From positions 1 through 64,000 of the forward strand of contig VSDH01000001.1 in NCBI GenBank assembly GCA_008636105.1: DNA of 64,000 nucleotides, in the 5' to 3' direction. Of this stretch, positions 52,070-55,894 are shown piece by piece. Position 1 is the stretch's first letter; each line of letters opens with the position of its first letter. This DNA is from Candidatus Scalindua sediminis. GTDB lineage: Bacteria > Planctomycetota > Brocadiia > Brocadiales > Scalinduaceae. A program made the position numbers and the translations under genes. Below the pieces are notes generated by a model, which searched no databases, was not told the origin of the DNA, and worked only from the letters and a program-made list of their open reading frames with translations.

Positions 52070-52122
52070 TTGACATTCAATATGTTGTATGTTAGATTGC
52101 ACTACACTTCTATATGTTGATT
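52070..52122 (+). promoter_or_regulatory. nrdR promoter with two NrdR-box-like sites
   Basis: TTGACA (52070-52075) and TAGATT (52093-52098) with a 17-bp spacer form the promoter. CAATATGTTG (52078-52087) lies in the spacer and CTATATGTTG (52110-52119) lies downstream of the -10. Both fit the core of the NrdR box consensus (CwATATwTwG) with one substitution each. They are exactly 32 bp apart, about three helical turns, as NrdR box pairs usually are. This predicts autoregulation of nrdR and possibly co-regulation of nrdD. Confidence 0.65.
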
Positions 52123-52163: not shown

Positions 52164-52640
52164 ATGAAGTGTCTATTTTGTAAGGTTGATAACGACAGAG
52201 TAATTAACTCAAGAACATCAATAGATGGTTTAAGTGTAAAACGGAGGCGTGCATGTTTAAATTGTGGCAGACGATTTACAACATACGAGAGGGTTGAAGA
52301 AAGCCCTATAAGAGTAGTAAAAAAGAATGGTAGTAGAGTTAATTTTGATCGCAATAAGATACTAACAGGGTTGCTCAAGGCATGTGAAAAAAGGCCTGTG
52401 TCAACTGAAGCACTTGAAAATATTGTATCTGAAATAGAAAGAGTAATATACGACAAGTTTGAAAGGGAAGTTGATACGAAGTTTGTCGGTGAACTTGTCA
52501 TGCAAAAGCTTGAAATTCTGGACAAGGTAGCTTATGTTAGGTTTGCGTCAGTATACAGAGAGTTTAAAGATGTAAAAGAATTCCTTGATGAGTTGAAACC
52601 TTTAATATCTCCAGCCAAGAAAAAAGTTAAGAGAAATTAA
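52164..52640 (+). CDS. nrdR: Transcriptional repressor NrdR
   Basis: NrdR senses nucleotide state (ATP/dATP) and represses ribonucleotide reductase genes. The 158 residues have the zinc ribbon CLFCKVDNDRVINSRTS...RRRACLNCGRRFTTYERVE (about 3-47) followed by an ATP-cone (about 49-139; VVKKNGSRVNFDRNKILTGLLKACEKRPVS). It is 28 bp upstream of nrdD, the gene it should control, and its own promoter contains two NrdR-box-like sites. Confidence 0.96.
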   Translation: MKCLFCKVDNDRVINSRTSIDGLSVKRRRACLNCGRRFTTYERVEESPIRVVKKNGSRVNFDRNKILTGLLKACEKRPVSTEALENIVSEIERVIYDKFEREVDTKFVGELVMQKLEILDKVAYVRFASVYREFKDVKEFLDELKPLISPAKKKVKRN

Positions 52641-52668: not shown

Positions 52669-55044
52669 ATGACGATTGAAATGGTTCAGAAGCGTGATGG
52701 TAGATTAGTACCTTTTGATGAAAGTAAAATAGCAGATGCCATTTTCAAAGCTGCAAAAGCTATTAATGGCGAAGACAGATCCATTGCGGTAGAACTTGCA
52801 AGTGCTGTGACTCATTTCTTGCAAAAAAGATTCAATGACAAAATCCCGGGAATAGAAGATATTCAGGACCTAGTTGAAGAGATTTTAATCAAGAATGGAC
52901 ATGCAAAGACAGCAAAAGCCTATATACTATATCGAGAAGATAGAGCAAGGGTACGTAAATCACTCCGCGTTAGAAAACAAATCAGAAAAAGCAGCGATAC
53001 AACCGATGCAGCGTTAATGGTGGATCAGATTAGTAGGGATGAATCGTTCCCCTGGGACAAAAGAAAGATTGCAACAGCATTGGAAAAAGAAGCGGATTTG
53101 TCTAGCGAAATAGCTCAGGAGATTGCAAGTGCTGTTGAGAATCGTGTTTTCGCTTCAGGTCTAAATAGAATATCTACATCACTGGTTCGCGAACTGGCAG
53201 ATAATGAACTCTTTGAAAGAGGGTACAATGCAAAACTTGAAAAACAAACTGCCTTAGGTATGCCAAAATATGACATTGAACAACTCATATACTCGAAAAA
53301 TAAAGAAAACAGCAATATAGCATCCAATAATCCTGAGGCAATTAATCTTGCTGTAGCAGAAAACACCTTAAAACAATATGCTCTCCAAGAAGTATTTTCT
53401 AAAGACGTTGCAGACGCACACATTACTGGAATGGTCCACATTCATGATCTTGGTTATCCGACCAGAGTATATTGTTCCTCTCATTCCCTTGAGTATTTAA
53501 AAAAATACGGATTATCACTGGAAAATCTGGATACATCTTCTGCACCTGCTAAACATGCCAGAACGCTTACGGGTCATCTGAATACATTTCTTGCCTCAAT
53601 GCAGGCTTATTATGCTGGAGCTTTAGGGATAGGCTATATAAACATAATGTATGCTCCATATGTAGAAAATATGAACTATGATGAAATGAAGCAGGAAGCT
53701 CAACACTTAATTTTTAGTGGTTCACAAAGTGCTTTCTCTCGTGGAGGTCAGACATTATTCTTGGATTTCAACATACATACAGGTATACCAAATTATCTGA
53801 AAAAGATACAGGCTGTTGGTCCCAGTGGAAAACTTACAGGCAGGCTGTATGGAGAATATGAATTAGCTTCACAGAGGTTCACAAAGGCCTTGCTTGATGT
53901 CTGGCGTGAGGGTGATTGTCATGGGCATGTATTTGCATTTCCTAAATGTGATCTGCATATAAGTCATGATACATACAAAGACCCTAAACAATATGAACTT
54001 TTGGAATATGCTTGTCAGATTGCCAGTGAAAATGGGGTACCATATTTTGTCTTTGATAGAGATGAAATAACCTTGTCCGCATGTTGTCGACTGCGTACAA
54101 CTATATCAGATAATTATATGATTGATCATCCTGAAAGTATGAGATTTTGTGGATTCCAAAATGTAACTGTAAGTCTTCCTCAAGCTGCCTACCGCGCTGG
54201 CAAAGGAGACTTTGATAAACTTTATCGAGAGATTGACAAAGGTATAGACATTGCCATCAAGGCACATCTACAAAAAAAGAAATTCATTACTAGGCTGATG
54301 TCTGGTCCTGAAATGCCGTTGTGGGAAATTGGCAAGAAAGCCGCCGATGGAAGGCCATATGTAGATTTGGAAGCAGCTACTTACATAGTTGGCATTATAG
54401 GCCTGAATGAATGTCTACAGTATATGATCGGCAAGGAATTACATGAAGGTGATGATGTAGTTAAACTCGGACTACGTATTATTTCTCATATGTACTTCAA
54501 AGTGAAGGAAGAGGGCAAAAAATACAATTTGAAATTTTCACTTGAAGAATCACCTGCAGAAAGTGCGAGCAGGAGACTTGCCAAGATAGACGTTAGAAAC
54601 TACGAGGAAGCCGTTAACTTAATCAAGGGCGACATCGACAAAGACGAGTTTTATTACACAAACAGCGTTCACTTGCGTCCCGATGCGCCTACAGATATGA
54701 TCACAAGGATCAATGTTCAGAGTAAATTCCATAGCATGATTGAGTCTGGCGCAATAATACATGCTTTTGTGGGAGAGGAGAGGCCACCAGCTTCCGGTAT
54801 TATGAAATTGGTGCGAAAGACCTTTGAAAACACACAGGCAGCACAATTAACCATATCACCGGAATTCACCATTTGTAACGAATGTCATCGTGTTATTCCC
54901 AGGTTGGTAGATGTGTGTTCTTACTGTGATTCATCAAATTTCTATGGAATAAGAAGACTTGTATCGCACGACAAAGTCAACAACTGGGACAGAACGAAAA
55001 TTAGTGAATTGGCAGGTAGACAAAAGGAGAATTCTGAAACTTAA
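52669..55044 (+). CDS. nrdD: Anaerobic (class III) ribonucleoside-triphosphate reductase-like protein, no glycyl-radical Gly found
   Basis: The protein has 791 residues. The N-terminus holds an ATP-cone (about 3-95, VQKRDGRLVPFDESKIADAI) and a second cone-like repeat (about 110-190). The catalytic barrel follows, with VHIHDLGYPTRVYCSSHS, SGSQSAFSRGGQTLFLDFN, the finger-loop cysteines in LSACCRL and RFCGFQNVTVSLP. The C-terminus has a Cys4 zinc site (CNECH...CSYC) and the WxxxKxxEL signature. Family members then have R-V-x-G-Y with the radical Gly about 13 residues after the last Cys. Here the segment reads YGIRRLVSHDKVNNWDRTKISEL, with Ser or Val there and no Gly. Frame and both neighbouring motifs are intact. 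nrdR lies upstream and nrdG downstream. Confidence 0.88.
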   Translation: MTIEMVQKRDGRLVPFDESKIADAIFKAAKAINGEDRSIAVELASAVTHFLQKRFNDKIPGIEDIQDLVEEILIKNGHAKTAKAYILYREDRARVRKSLRVRKQIRKSSDTTDAALMVDQISRDESFPWDKRKIATALEKEADLSSEIAQEIASAVENRVFASGLNRISTSLVRELADNELFERGYNAKLEKQTALGMPKYDIEQLIYSKNKENSNIASNNPEAINLAVAENTLKQYALQEVFSKDVADAHITGMVHIHDLGYPTRVYCSSHSLEYLKKYGLSLENLDTSSAPAKHARTLTGHLNTFLASMQAYYAGALGIGYINIMYAPYVENMNYDEMKQEAQHLIFSGSQSAFSRGGQTLFLDFNIHTGIPNYLKKIQAVGPSGKLTGRLYGEYELASQRFTKALLDVWREGDCHGHVFAFPKCDLHISHDTYKDPKQYELLEYACQIASENGVPYFVFDRDEITLSACCRLRTTISDNYMIDHPESMRFCGFQNVTVSLPQAAYRAGKGDFDKLYREIDKGIDIAIKAHLQKKKFITRLMSGPEMPLWEIGKKAADGRPYVDLEAATYIVGIIGLNECLQYMIGKELHEGDDVVKLGLRIISHMYFKVKEEGKKYNLKFSLEESPAESASRRLAKIDVRNYEEAVNLIKGDIDKDEFYYTNSVHLRPDAPTDMITRINVQSKFHSMIESGAIIHAFVGEERPPASGIMKLVRKTFENTQAAQLTISPEFTICNECHRVIPRLVDVCSYCDSSNFYGIRRLVSHDKVNNWDRTKISELAGRQKENSET

Positions 55045-55159: not shown

Positions 55160-55894
55160 ATGTCCATAACAATAAAAGGTTTCATAGAAAACAGTTTGAT
55201 AGAGTGGGAGGGAAATATTGTTTCTATTATCTTCCTCCCCCATTGTAATTTGAGATGTCCATATTGTCATGCTACTCACCTGGTCAGGGAGCCTAACGAG
55301 CTTGAAAGCATTCCATTAGATGCCGTAATAGGAAAGATAAAACAAAACAAAAGTTGGCTGGATGGTGTTGTTATTACTGGCGGGGAACCTACGTTTCATA
55401 GTGATATAGATTTATTGATAAAGATTTTTAAGGAGATGGGGTTAAAGGTCAGGATAGATACAAATGGTACGAATCCCGCTGCATTGGAGAATCTGATACA
55501 AAGAGGATTAATTGATTGTGTAGCTATGGACATAAAAGCACCTTTAAGGGAGGAAAAATATAGAATAGCTGCCGGAACTTCGTGCGACCTGTCGGATATA
55601 AGGAAGAGCATAAAATTAATAATGGAAAGTGGTATAGAATATGAATTCCGCACTACAGTTTGTCCTACTGTTTTAGACGGGTTGGATATTACGGAAATTG
55701 CACAAAGTATAGCCGGAAGCAAGAGATATATTTTACAGACCTTTAAACCGAATAATTGTCTGGACAGCAGGCTGTTAGACGTCGAACCATACTCAGAAGA
55801 TGAAATAAAAGGGTTTGCTGAAGATGCACAGAGGTTTGTAAAGAATTGTTATGTTAGAGGCGAAGGCATGAAGGCCTTAAGCTGTAATTGGTAA
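55160..55894 (+). CDS. nrdG: Radical-SAM activating enzyme, NrdG-type
   Basis: The 244-residue protein uses SAM and a [4Fe-4S] cluster to make a glycyl radical on its partner. The cluster motif is CNLRCPYCHATHL (CxxxCxxC). GVVITGGEPTFHSDIDLLIKI holds the GGE SAM motif, and LKVRIDTNGTNPAALENLI and VAMDIKAPL are further elements of the NrdG2/anaerobic-activase branch. The length fits. It lies 115 bp downstream of nrdD, so an activase is present even though the partner's expected Gly is not found. It could also activate another protein. Confidence 0.9.
   Translation: MSITIKGFIENSLIEWEGNIVSIIFLPHCNLRCPYCHATHLVREPNELESIPLDAVIGKIKQNKSWLDGVVITGGEPTFHSDIDLLIKIFKEMGLKVRIDTNGTNPAALENLIQRGLIDCVAMDIKAPLREEKYRIAAGTSCDLSDIRKSIKLIMESGIEYEFRTTVCPTVLDGLDITEIAQSIAGSKRYILQTFKPNNCLDSRLLDVEPYSEDEIKGFAEDAQRFVKNCYVRGEGMKALSCNW

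Follow-up and report, generated by a model that had tools for sequence, protein, structure and literature searches.

The nrdD gene in the 64,000-nucleotide stretch of the Candidatus Scalindua sediminis genome analyzed here (the window) very probably codes for the larger of the two chains of a split class III ribonucleotide reductase; the glycyl loop that this chain has lost would be supplied to it in trans by a small protein encoded elsewhere in the genome. What we observed in regard to such trans action is the co-occurrence of the two proteins, NrdR-like boxes and phage-borne copies of the small gene. It is also likely that the two chains represent an obligate two-subunit subclass of class III enzymes, with a detachable radical subunit of ~12-18 kDa that was formerly a spare part, now carries the radical alone in several lineages of Planctomycetota (in some of them within the only reductase), is predicted to be controlled by NrdR, and has copies without NrdR boxes in phages of these bacteria.

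The nrdD locus of the window

The reading frame of nrdD is intact and open through the region of the radical motif. It encodes 791 amino acids, including CNECHRVIPRLVDVCSYCDSSNFYGIRRLVSHDKVNNWDRTKISEL, and its C-terminal tail reads CSYCDSSNFYGIRRLVSHDKVNNWDRTKISEL. The protein scored above the cut-offs of both PF13597 (387.6 bits) and the NCBIfam model TIGR02487 (376.2 bits), two ATP-cone matches were found in it, and its AlphaFold model matches the class III structures of P. copri, T4, T. maritima and S. thermophilus with Z scores of 21.5-26.1. In the same model, residues 759-773, where the radical loop is expected, have a pLDDT below 50. NrdD is present as a single copy in 55 out of the 59 genomes of the order. 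One nrdD frame, that of Scalindua rubra (L133; G002:C5:21234-23601), is broken near residue 130, probably by an assembly frameshift.

The cysteines in Table 1 were compared across 55 aligned homologues, comprising NrdDs both with and without the radical glycine. Among them C269, C472, C473 and C494 are predicted to be catalytic; the SCCR motif is essential in the NrdD of T. maritima and N. bacilliformis (PMC4493059). That the partners nrdR and nrdG are retained had been pointed out in the initial annotation, and both do flank the gene, in the order nrdR, nrdD, nrdG2. Wherever the contig or gene was readable, an nrdG with intact CX3CX2C motif also follows nrdD in the other loci that lack the glycine; at one of these (L175) no nrdG was found nearby within 5 kb of flank.

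Table 1. Features of the probable split class III reductase in the window and of the small glycyl protein gene elsewhere in the same genome.
Feature	Position	Strand	Evidence
Probable NrdR box pair upstream of nrdR-nrdD-nrdG	52075..52122 (52075-52090, 52107-52122)	+	spacer 16 bp
nrdR, repressor of ribonucleotide reductase genes	52164..52640	+	TIGR00244 192.6 bits, above cut-off; ATP-cone, NrdR zinc ribbon
nrdD, class III ribonucleotide reductase catalytic chain without cis glycyl radical	52669..55044	+	PF13597, TIGR02487, ATP-cones
Cys269, aligned with Cys125 of T. maritima NrdD (active-site cysteine)	53473..53475	+	phmmer alignment to 4coi; invariant in 55 homologues
Cys472-Cys473 of SACCR motif (SCCR in T. 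maritima / N. bacilliformis NrdD)	54082..54087	+	invariant in 55 homologues
Cys494 in MRFCGFQN, near predicted finger loop	54148..54150	+	invariant in 55 homologues; predicted role
C-terminal Cys4 zinc site (C736, C739, C750, C753)	54874..54927	+	invariant in 55 homologues
Degenerate former glycyl-radical loop RLVSHDKV (RIVGYFSRI in homologues)	54955..54978	+	alignment of 13 representatives; tails of the order and 80 loci
nrdG2, radical-SAM activase, CX3CX2C intact (CNLRCPYC)	55160..55894	+	TIGR02495 181.7 bits, above cut-off
Small glycyl protein, own genome	contig C9:26741-27205 (L208:4742-5206)		GTG start after GGAGG, 154 aa

Loss of the radical glycine in cis

The absence of the glycyl-radical glycine, as initially annotated, was confirmed: the window NrdD has RLVSH in place of R-V-x-G-Y, in a motif loop that is one residue shorter. 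The aligned segment reads SRIVGYFSRINNWNKSKI in Brocadiaceae, the Gly-containing sister family, and RRLVSH-DKVNNWDRTKI, with no glycine, in the window. The flanking motifs had been described as being in frame, and this applies to the Cys4 site and NNW across all relatives, so that neither a frameshift nor a base error accounts for the loss.

A survey of close homologues found the glycine missing in 13 out of 13 tails of the Scalindua family (f1, that of the window), where the replacements vary (RRRASQT, KKSASQS, KRSALQN, RKRVSHD and NKRDSHE), and the radical motif missing in both tails from Candidatus Anammoxibacter (f4). The residue at the glycine position in family f2 is S in four tails, G in two, and N and D in one each. 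RIVGYFSR is kept in 25 out of 26 Brocadiaceae tails (label f5 was given to Brocadia, Kuenenia and Loosdrechtia), with the motif shifted in one. In the latter (L050, from a 100% complete genome), the glycine has moved by one residue (RIGDYFSR) and the small protein described below is intact; this tail is perhaps an early stage of the loss in cis. Beyond the order, ten more Planctomycetota NrdDs, 64-68% identical, are without the glycine, and about 33 retain TRIVGYFSR or TRVVGYFSR-like loops. On a tree built without the tails, parsimony needs at least five state changes, and well-supported branches force at least two.

A nearby glycine, in the motif YGI, had been put forward as a shifted radical site. 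Since close relatives read YSI or YRI at this place, a shifted site in the same chain is refuted; in L005/L110 there is not a single glycine downstream of the last zinc cysteine.

A separate small glycyl protein

The query used consisted of a Gly-containing NrdD tail together with a class II reductase. Besides the degenerate tails of NrdD, the tail part of the query picked up a separate small ORF, with 45-74% identity over the loop, in almost all Gly-less genomes that were searched: 9 out of 10 outside the order, and every one of the Scalindua family (with the own genome) and of Anammoxibacter. The proposal of a shifted radical site hence holds insofar as the site has moved, and fails as to the chain, the loop being found on a separate polypeptide encoded outside the window. 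The small proteins have ~110-165 amino acids, with TRIVGYYSRVNNWNKSKVGELRDR as C-terminal end, and in their alignment an invariant loop is preceded by about 70-105 amino acids of variable N-terminal sequence. In the small protein of the own genome these are an N-terminal part of ~95 amino acids and the loop GITRIVGYYSRVNNWNKSKVGELRDR. The loop TR[IV]VGY...NWN was intact in all 58 distinct small proteins, with the qualification that the motif had guided the collection of this set.

When eight small proteins were searched against Pfam at E-values up to 10, they matched the tail of PF13597 and not PF01228. The host small proteins tested against Pfam and NCBIfam had only sub-threshold matches, to the final 30 NrdD positions, except for one (L225) that exceeded the Pfam cut-off by 0.1 bit. 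Neither a PF01228 match nor an NrdD paralogue was found in the own genome. Small ORFs situated between nrdD and nrdG, thioredoxin-like or other, were also considered as glycyl carriers, and none of those listed bears the motif; the gap between nrdD and nrdG in the window has no ORF for a glycyl carrier.

The neighborhood of the small gene is conserved within families, with no link to nrdD. In the own genome, for instance, the gene is followed by two genes resembling acyl-CoA dehydratase activase-type proteins, and nrdD is not adjacent. Two copies of the small protein are encoded in some genomes (G016, G024, G034, G036 and G057). As for the region between nrdD and nrdG, five loci of family f2 (L135, L137, L141, L142 and L144) have there a gene for a protein of ~105-145 amino acids with the motif GLxGFxNxYxxxPGMG. 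In many other relatives (L138, L139, L145-L149, L152-L154, L174, L176, L177, L180 and L184) the place is taken by a gene for a thioredoxin/glutaredoxin-like CxxC protein, which may be the reductant; no such gene was found at this place in Scalindua or Brocadiaceae.

Distribution and origin

Across the order (59 genomes), a profile search detected the small protein in 17 out of 17 Scalindua genomes (f1), both Anammoxibacter genomes (f4), 8 out of 9 genomes of f2, 29 out of 30 Brocadiaceae, and not in the single genome of f3. Outside the order it occurs in 9 out of 10 Gly-less genomes vs 3 out of 30 Gly-containing ones (Fisher p = 7e-6, uncorrected for relatedness, the counts being phylogenetically correlated and many of the genomes being MAGs). 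The three Gly-containing carriers are G099, G082 and G088, of which the last has a fragment of 41 amino acids lying at the end of a contig, while G104 encodes a different, zinc-ribbon-bearing kind of small glycyl protein. In three Gly-less genomes (G017, G018/G071 and G059) the small protein was not found; two of the three are MAGs of small size, 1.6 and 1.8 Mb.

In Brocadiaceae the glycine in cis and the small protein are both present, which suggests that the spare part came first and that the loss in cis followed. Going by these sequences, the small protein appears to have started as a spare part; decay of the cis loop in several lineages would then have left it as the only carrier of the radical.

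NrdR-box-like sites

Upstream of the small gene we found paired 16-bp boxes resembling ACACWATATWTWGTGT, which we take to be the NrdR-box consensus and used for scoring. With spacings of 25-40 bp allowed, 38 out of 57 best pairs were exactly 31 bp apart, i.e. with a spacer of 15 bp, as compared to 5 out of 56 in control DNA (p = 1e-10 for the excess, uncorrected). The median of the summed mismatches was 7 for the small genes and 12 for the control. In the own genome the pair is located at C9:26475-26521 and is followed by TTGACA and TATATT. The pair upstream of nrdR in the window is weaker: the first box, ATTCAATATGTTGTAT, has 4 mismatches to the consensus and the second about 6, as counted by hand. 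In the nrdR promoters of relatives the spacing peaks at 31-32 bp. NrdR boxes have been reported with spacers of 15-16 bp (PMC12051234). An NrdR-like pair 31 bp apart was also seen upstream of the class II gene of the own genome that is cut by the end of contig C1 (L003).

Virus-borne copies

Scanning of predicted viral contigs gave 77 loci, about 70 of which (L311-L381) encode the small protein alone, with neither nrdD nor nrdG within 3 kb. In the contigs checked, the small gene adjoins portal, head or capsid genes. Examples are L311:2992-3435, whose product is 67% identical to the small protein of the own genome and whose gene sits between portal and cement genes, L313:2977-3402, between portal and Mu F-like genes, and L351:2755-3120, next to a capsid gene. 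None of 47 viral copies had a box pair at the 31-bp spacing, and the viral copies would seem to escape repression by the NrdR of the host. Their presence suggests that phages may replenish the most fragile component of dNTP synthesis in their hosts. Searches with the small protein against annotated phage and plasmid collections gave no match. The N-terminal part of the L311 protein was modeled with confidence, and searches with this fold gave neither a PDB match above Z 4.6 nor a Foldseek match with E below 0.2, which is not proof of a new fold. In another viral contig, a head-protein-like ORF adjoining the small glycyl gene (L320:121-1932) has an intein/Hint-like domain.

Function of the Gly-less NrdD

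In the mechanism we propose, NrdG2 would cleave S-adenosylmethionine and place a radical on the glycine of the small protein. By homology, the loop of the latter would then enter the NrdD barrel at the site of the former cis loop and generate the active-site thiyl radical, whereupon NrdD would reduce ribonucleotides through its conserved cysteines.

The remainder of the Gly-less NrdD is 65-89% identical among relatives, with no damage to the active-site cysteines, the zinc site or the ATP-cones, and dN/dS (NG86) was 0.06-0.09 for Gly-less pairs and 0.02-0.03 for Gly-containing pairs. Judged by these ratios, the Gly-less NrdD is under strong purifying selection.

A search for other reductases recovered a class II NrdJ in the own genome, divided over two contigs (C1:1-381 and C71:91580-92953), so that NrdD may not be essential there. 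Class II reductases were also found in several other Scalindua genomes, while in four Scalindua MAGs no other reductase was found. A class I small subunit was not found in any genome of the order. In 7 out of 7 genomes of a Gly-less, Planctomycetia-like clade, and likewise in the two Anammoxibacter genomes, neither PF02867 nor a monomeric class II reductase was found, and the split enzyme is therefore the sole reductase found in these. Although the seven are MAGs, an absence from all of them would be hard to blame on assembly gaps. Weak PF02867 matches in G062 and G070, inspected as possible hidden reductases, turned out from their sequences to be an alanyl-tRNA synthetase in one case and an unrelated protein in the other, and monomeric class II enzymes of the kind missed by PF02867 were present in several Brocadiaceae and absent from the Gly-less genomes.

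It is improbable that NrdD has become a non-catalytic, nucleotide-sensing or accessory protein, with the class II enzyme making the dNTPs and the small protein serving elsewhere. The class II reductases of the own and several other Scalindua genomes would fit such a role, as would a dN/dS two- to threefold above that of Gly-containing relatives. This ratio is nevertheless only 0.06-0.09 and, with the fully kept active-site cysteines, also disfavors the inactivated reductase considered in the initial annotation; furthermore, the nrdG partner is retained, and we could find no other reductase in at least seven genomes belonging to a different Gly-less lineage (7/7 in that clade). The loop of the small protein is also of the NrdD type, and the own genome offers neither an NrdD paralogue nor a PF01228 protein as recipient.

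A radical on some other residue of NrdD's own chain, as in the aminoacyl radical enzymes, is quite unlikely as well. Radicals on Ala, Ser and Thr have been demonstrated in the superfamily (PMC11528403), and several f2 members have a serine at the aligned place (RTDSY, RLDSY). Yet the loop is shortened, the residue varies between S, N, D, G, C and K among close relatives, in some clades (L171, L175, L178 and L186) nothing of the loop can be aligned, and nearly all Gly-less genomes encode a canonical glycine loop in trans.

Given that an nrdG with intact radical-SAM motif adjoins the Gly-less nrdD, its 5'-deoxyadenosyl radical might conceivably make the thiyl radical of NrdD directly, with no glycyl radical, in the way of class II enzymes and adenosylcobalamin; we regard this as very unlikely, as it leaves unexplained the co-occurring and fully conserved glycyl domain in trans and the NrdR-like boxes. 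An assembly or sequencing error, correction of which would restore R-V-x-G-Y, can practically be dismissed, the loss being shared by genomes that were assembled independently and that span several genera and families, and the ORF being open through the motif.

Relation to known systems

The proposed split enzyme resembles the class III NrdDs with SCCR motif (NrdDh, found in T. maritima and N. bacilliformis) in its barrel fold, the equivalent of Cys125, the CCR motif, the Cys4 zinc site and the NrdG partner, and differs from them in that the NrdD chain is without the glycyl-radical loop, which is borne by a separate small protein. The small protein, in turn, is similar to YfiD/GrcA and phage T4 Y06I, which are likewise small and autonomous, with an N-terminal part and a glycyl loop, and which can be phage-borne. 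These are activated by the activase of the host enzyme, which acts on YfiD bound to cleaved pyruvate formate-lyase (PMC8683613). Unlike in YfiD, the loop of the small protein is of the NrdD type rather than PF01228, and NrdR-like boxes are found upstream of the gene. Moreover, while YfiD is a repair part, the small protein would pair with a reductase that has no glycine in cis and would thus be an obligate subunit. The aminoacyl radical enzymes, with Ala, Ser or Thr for Gly, are, like the NrdD described here, homologues of glycyl radical enzymes without the catalytic glycine, but in these a single residue is replaced in cis in an otherwise intact motif, whereas the NrdD loop is shortened and variable. 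A survey for non-Gly variants from 2024 reported only canonical glycine among class III reductases (PMC11528403), and the Gly-less NrdD was therefore missed there. The split class II reductase of Pseudomonas aeruginosa also has its parts on two polypeptides (PMC4520616); it is a class II enzyme, with no glycyl radical.

In the open-access literature we found no report of a Gly-less class III reductase or of a glycyl subunit acting in trans, and within that literature the small protein would, if the split enzyme is real, have no predecessor as a proposed glycyl carrier in trans for a ribonucleotide reductase. Presence of the radical glycine on the catalytic chain itself has counted as a defining trait of class III, and here whole lineages are without it. 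The genomes offer a natural series of cis only, cis plus trans, and trans only. With a radical chain that can be replaced, damage by oxygen would cost little to repair, which would fit the micro-oxic habitats of anammox bacteria. Current family models label the large chain as an ordinary NrdD, and the small protein has no match to a specific family model.

Spare parts have been validated only for pyruvate formate-lyase and speculated upon for other enzymes (PMC8683613); a carrier acting in trans on NrdD would answer that speculation. Lastly, a Ratteibacteria genome encodes a standalone glycyl protein of another kind (L306:1258-1713, minus strand), which has a zinc ribbon as well as SRVTGYIQAVSGWNSGKVQEL and suggests that NrdD spare parts exist in other lineages.
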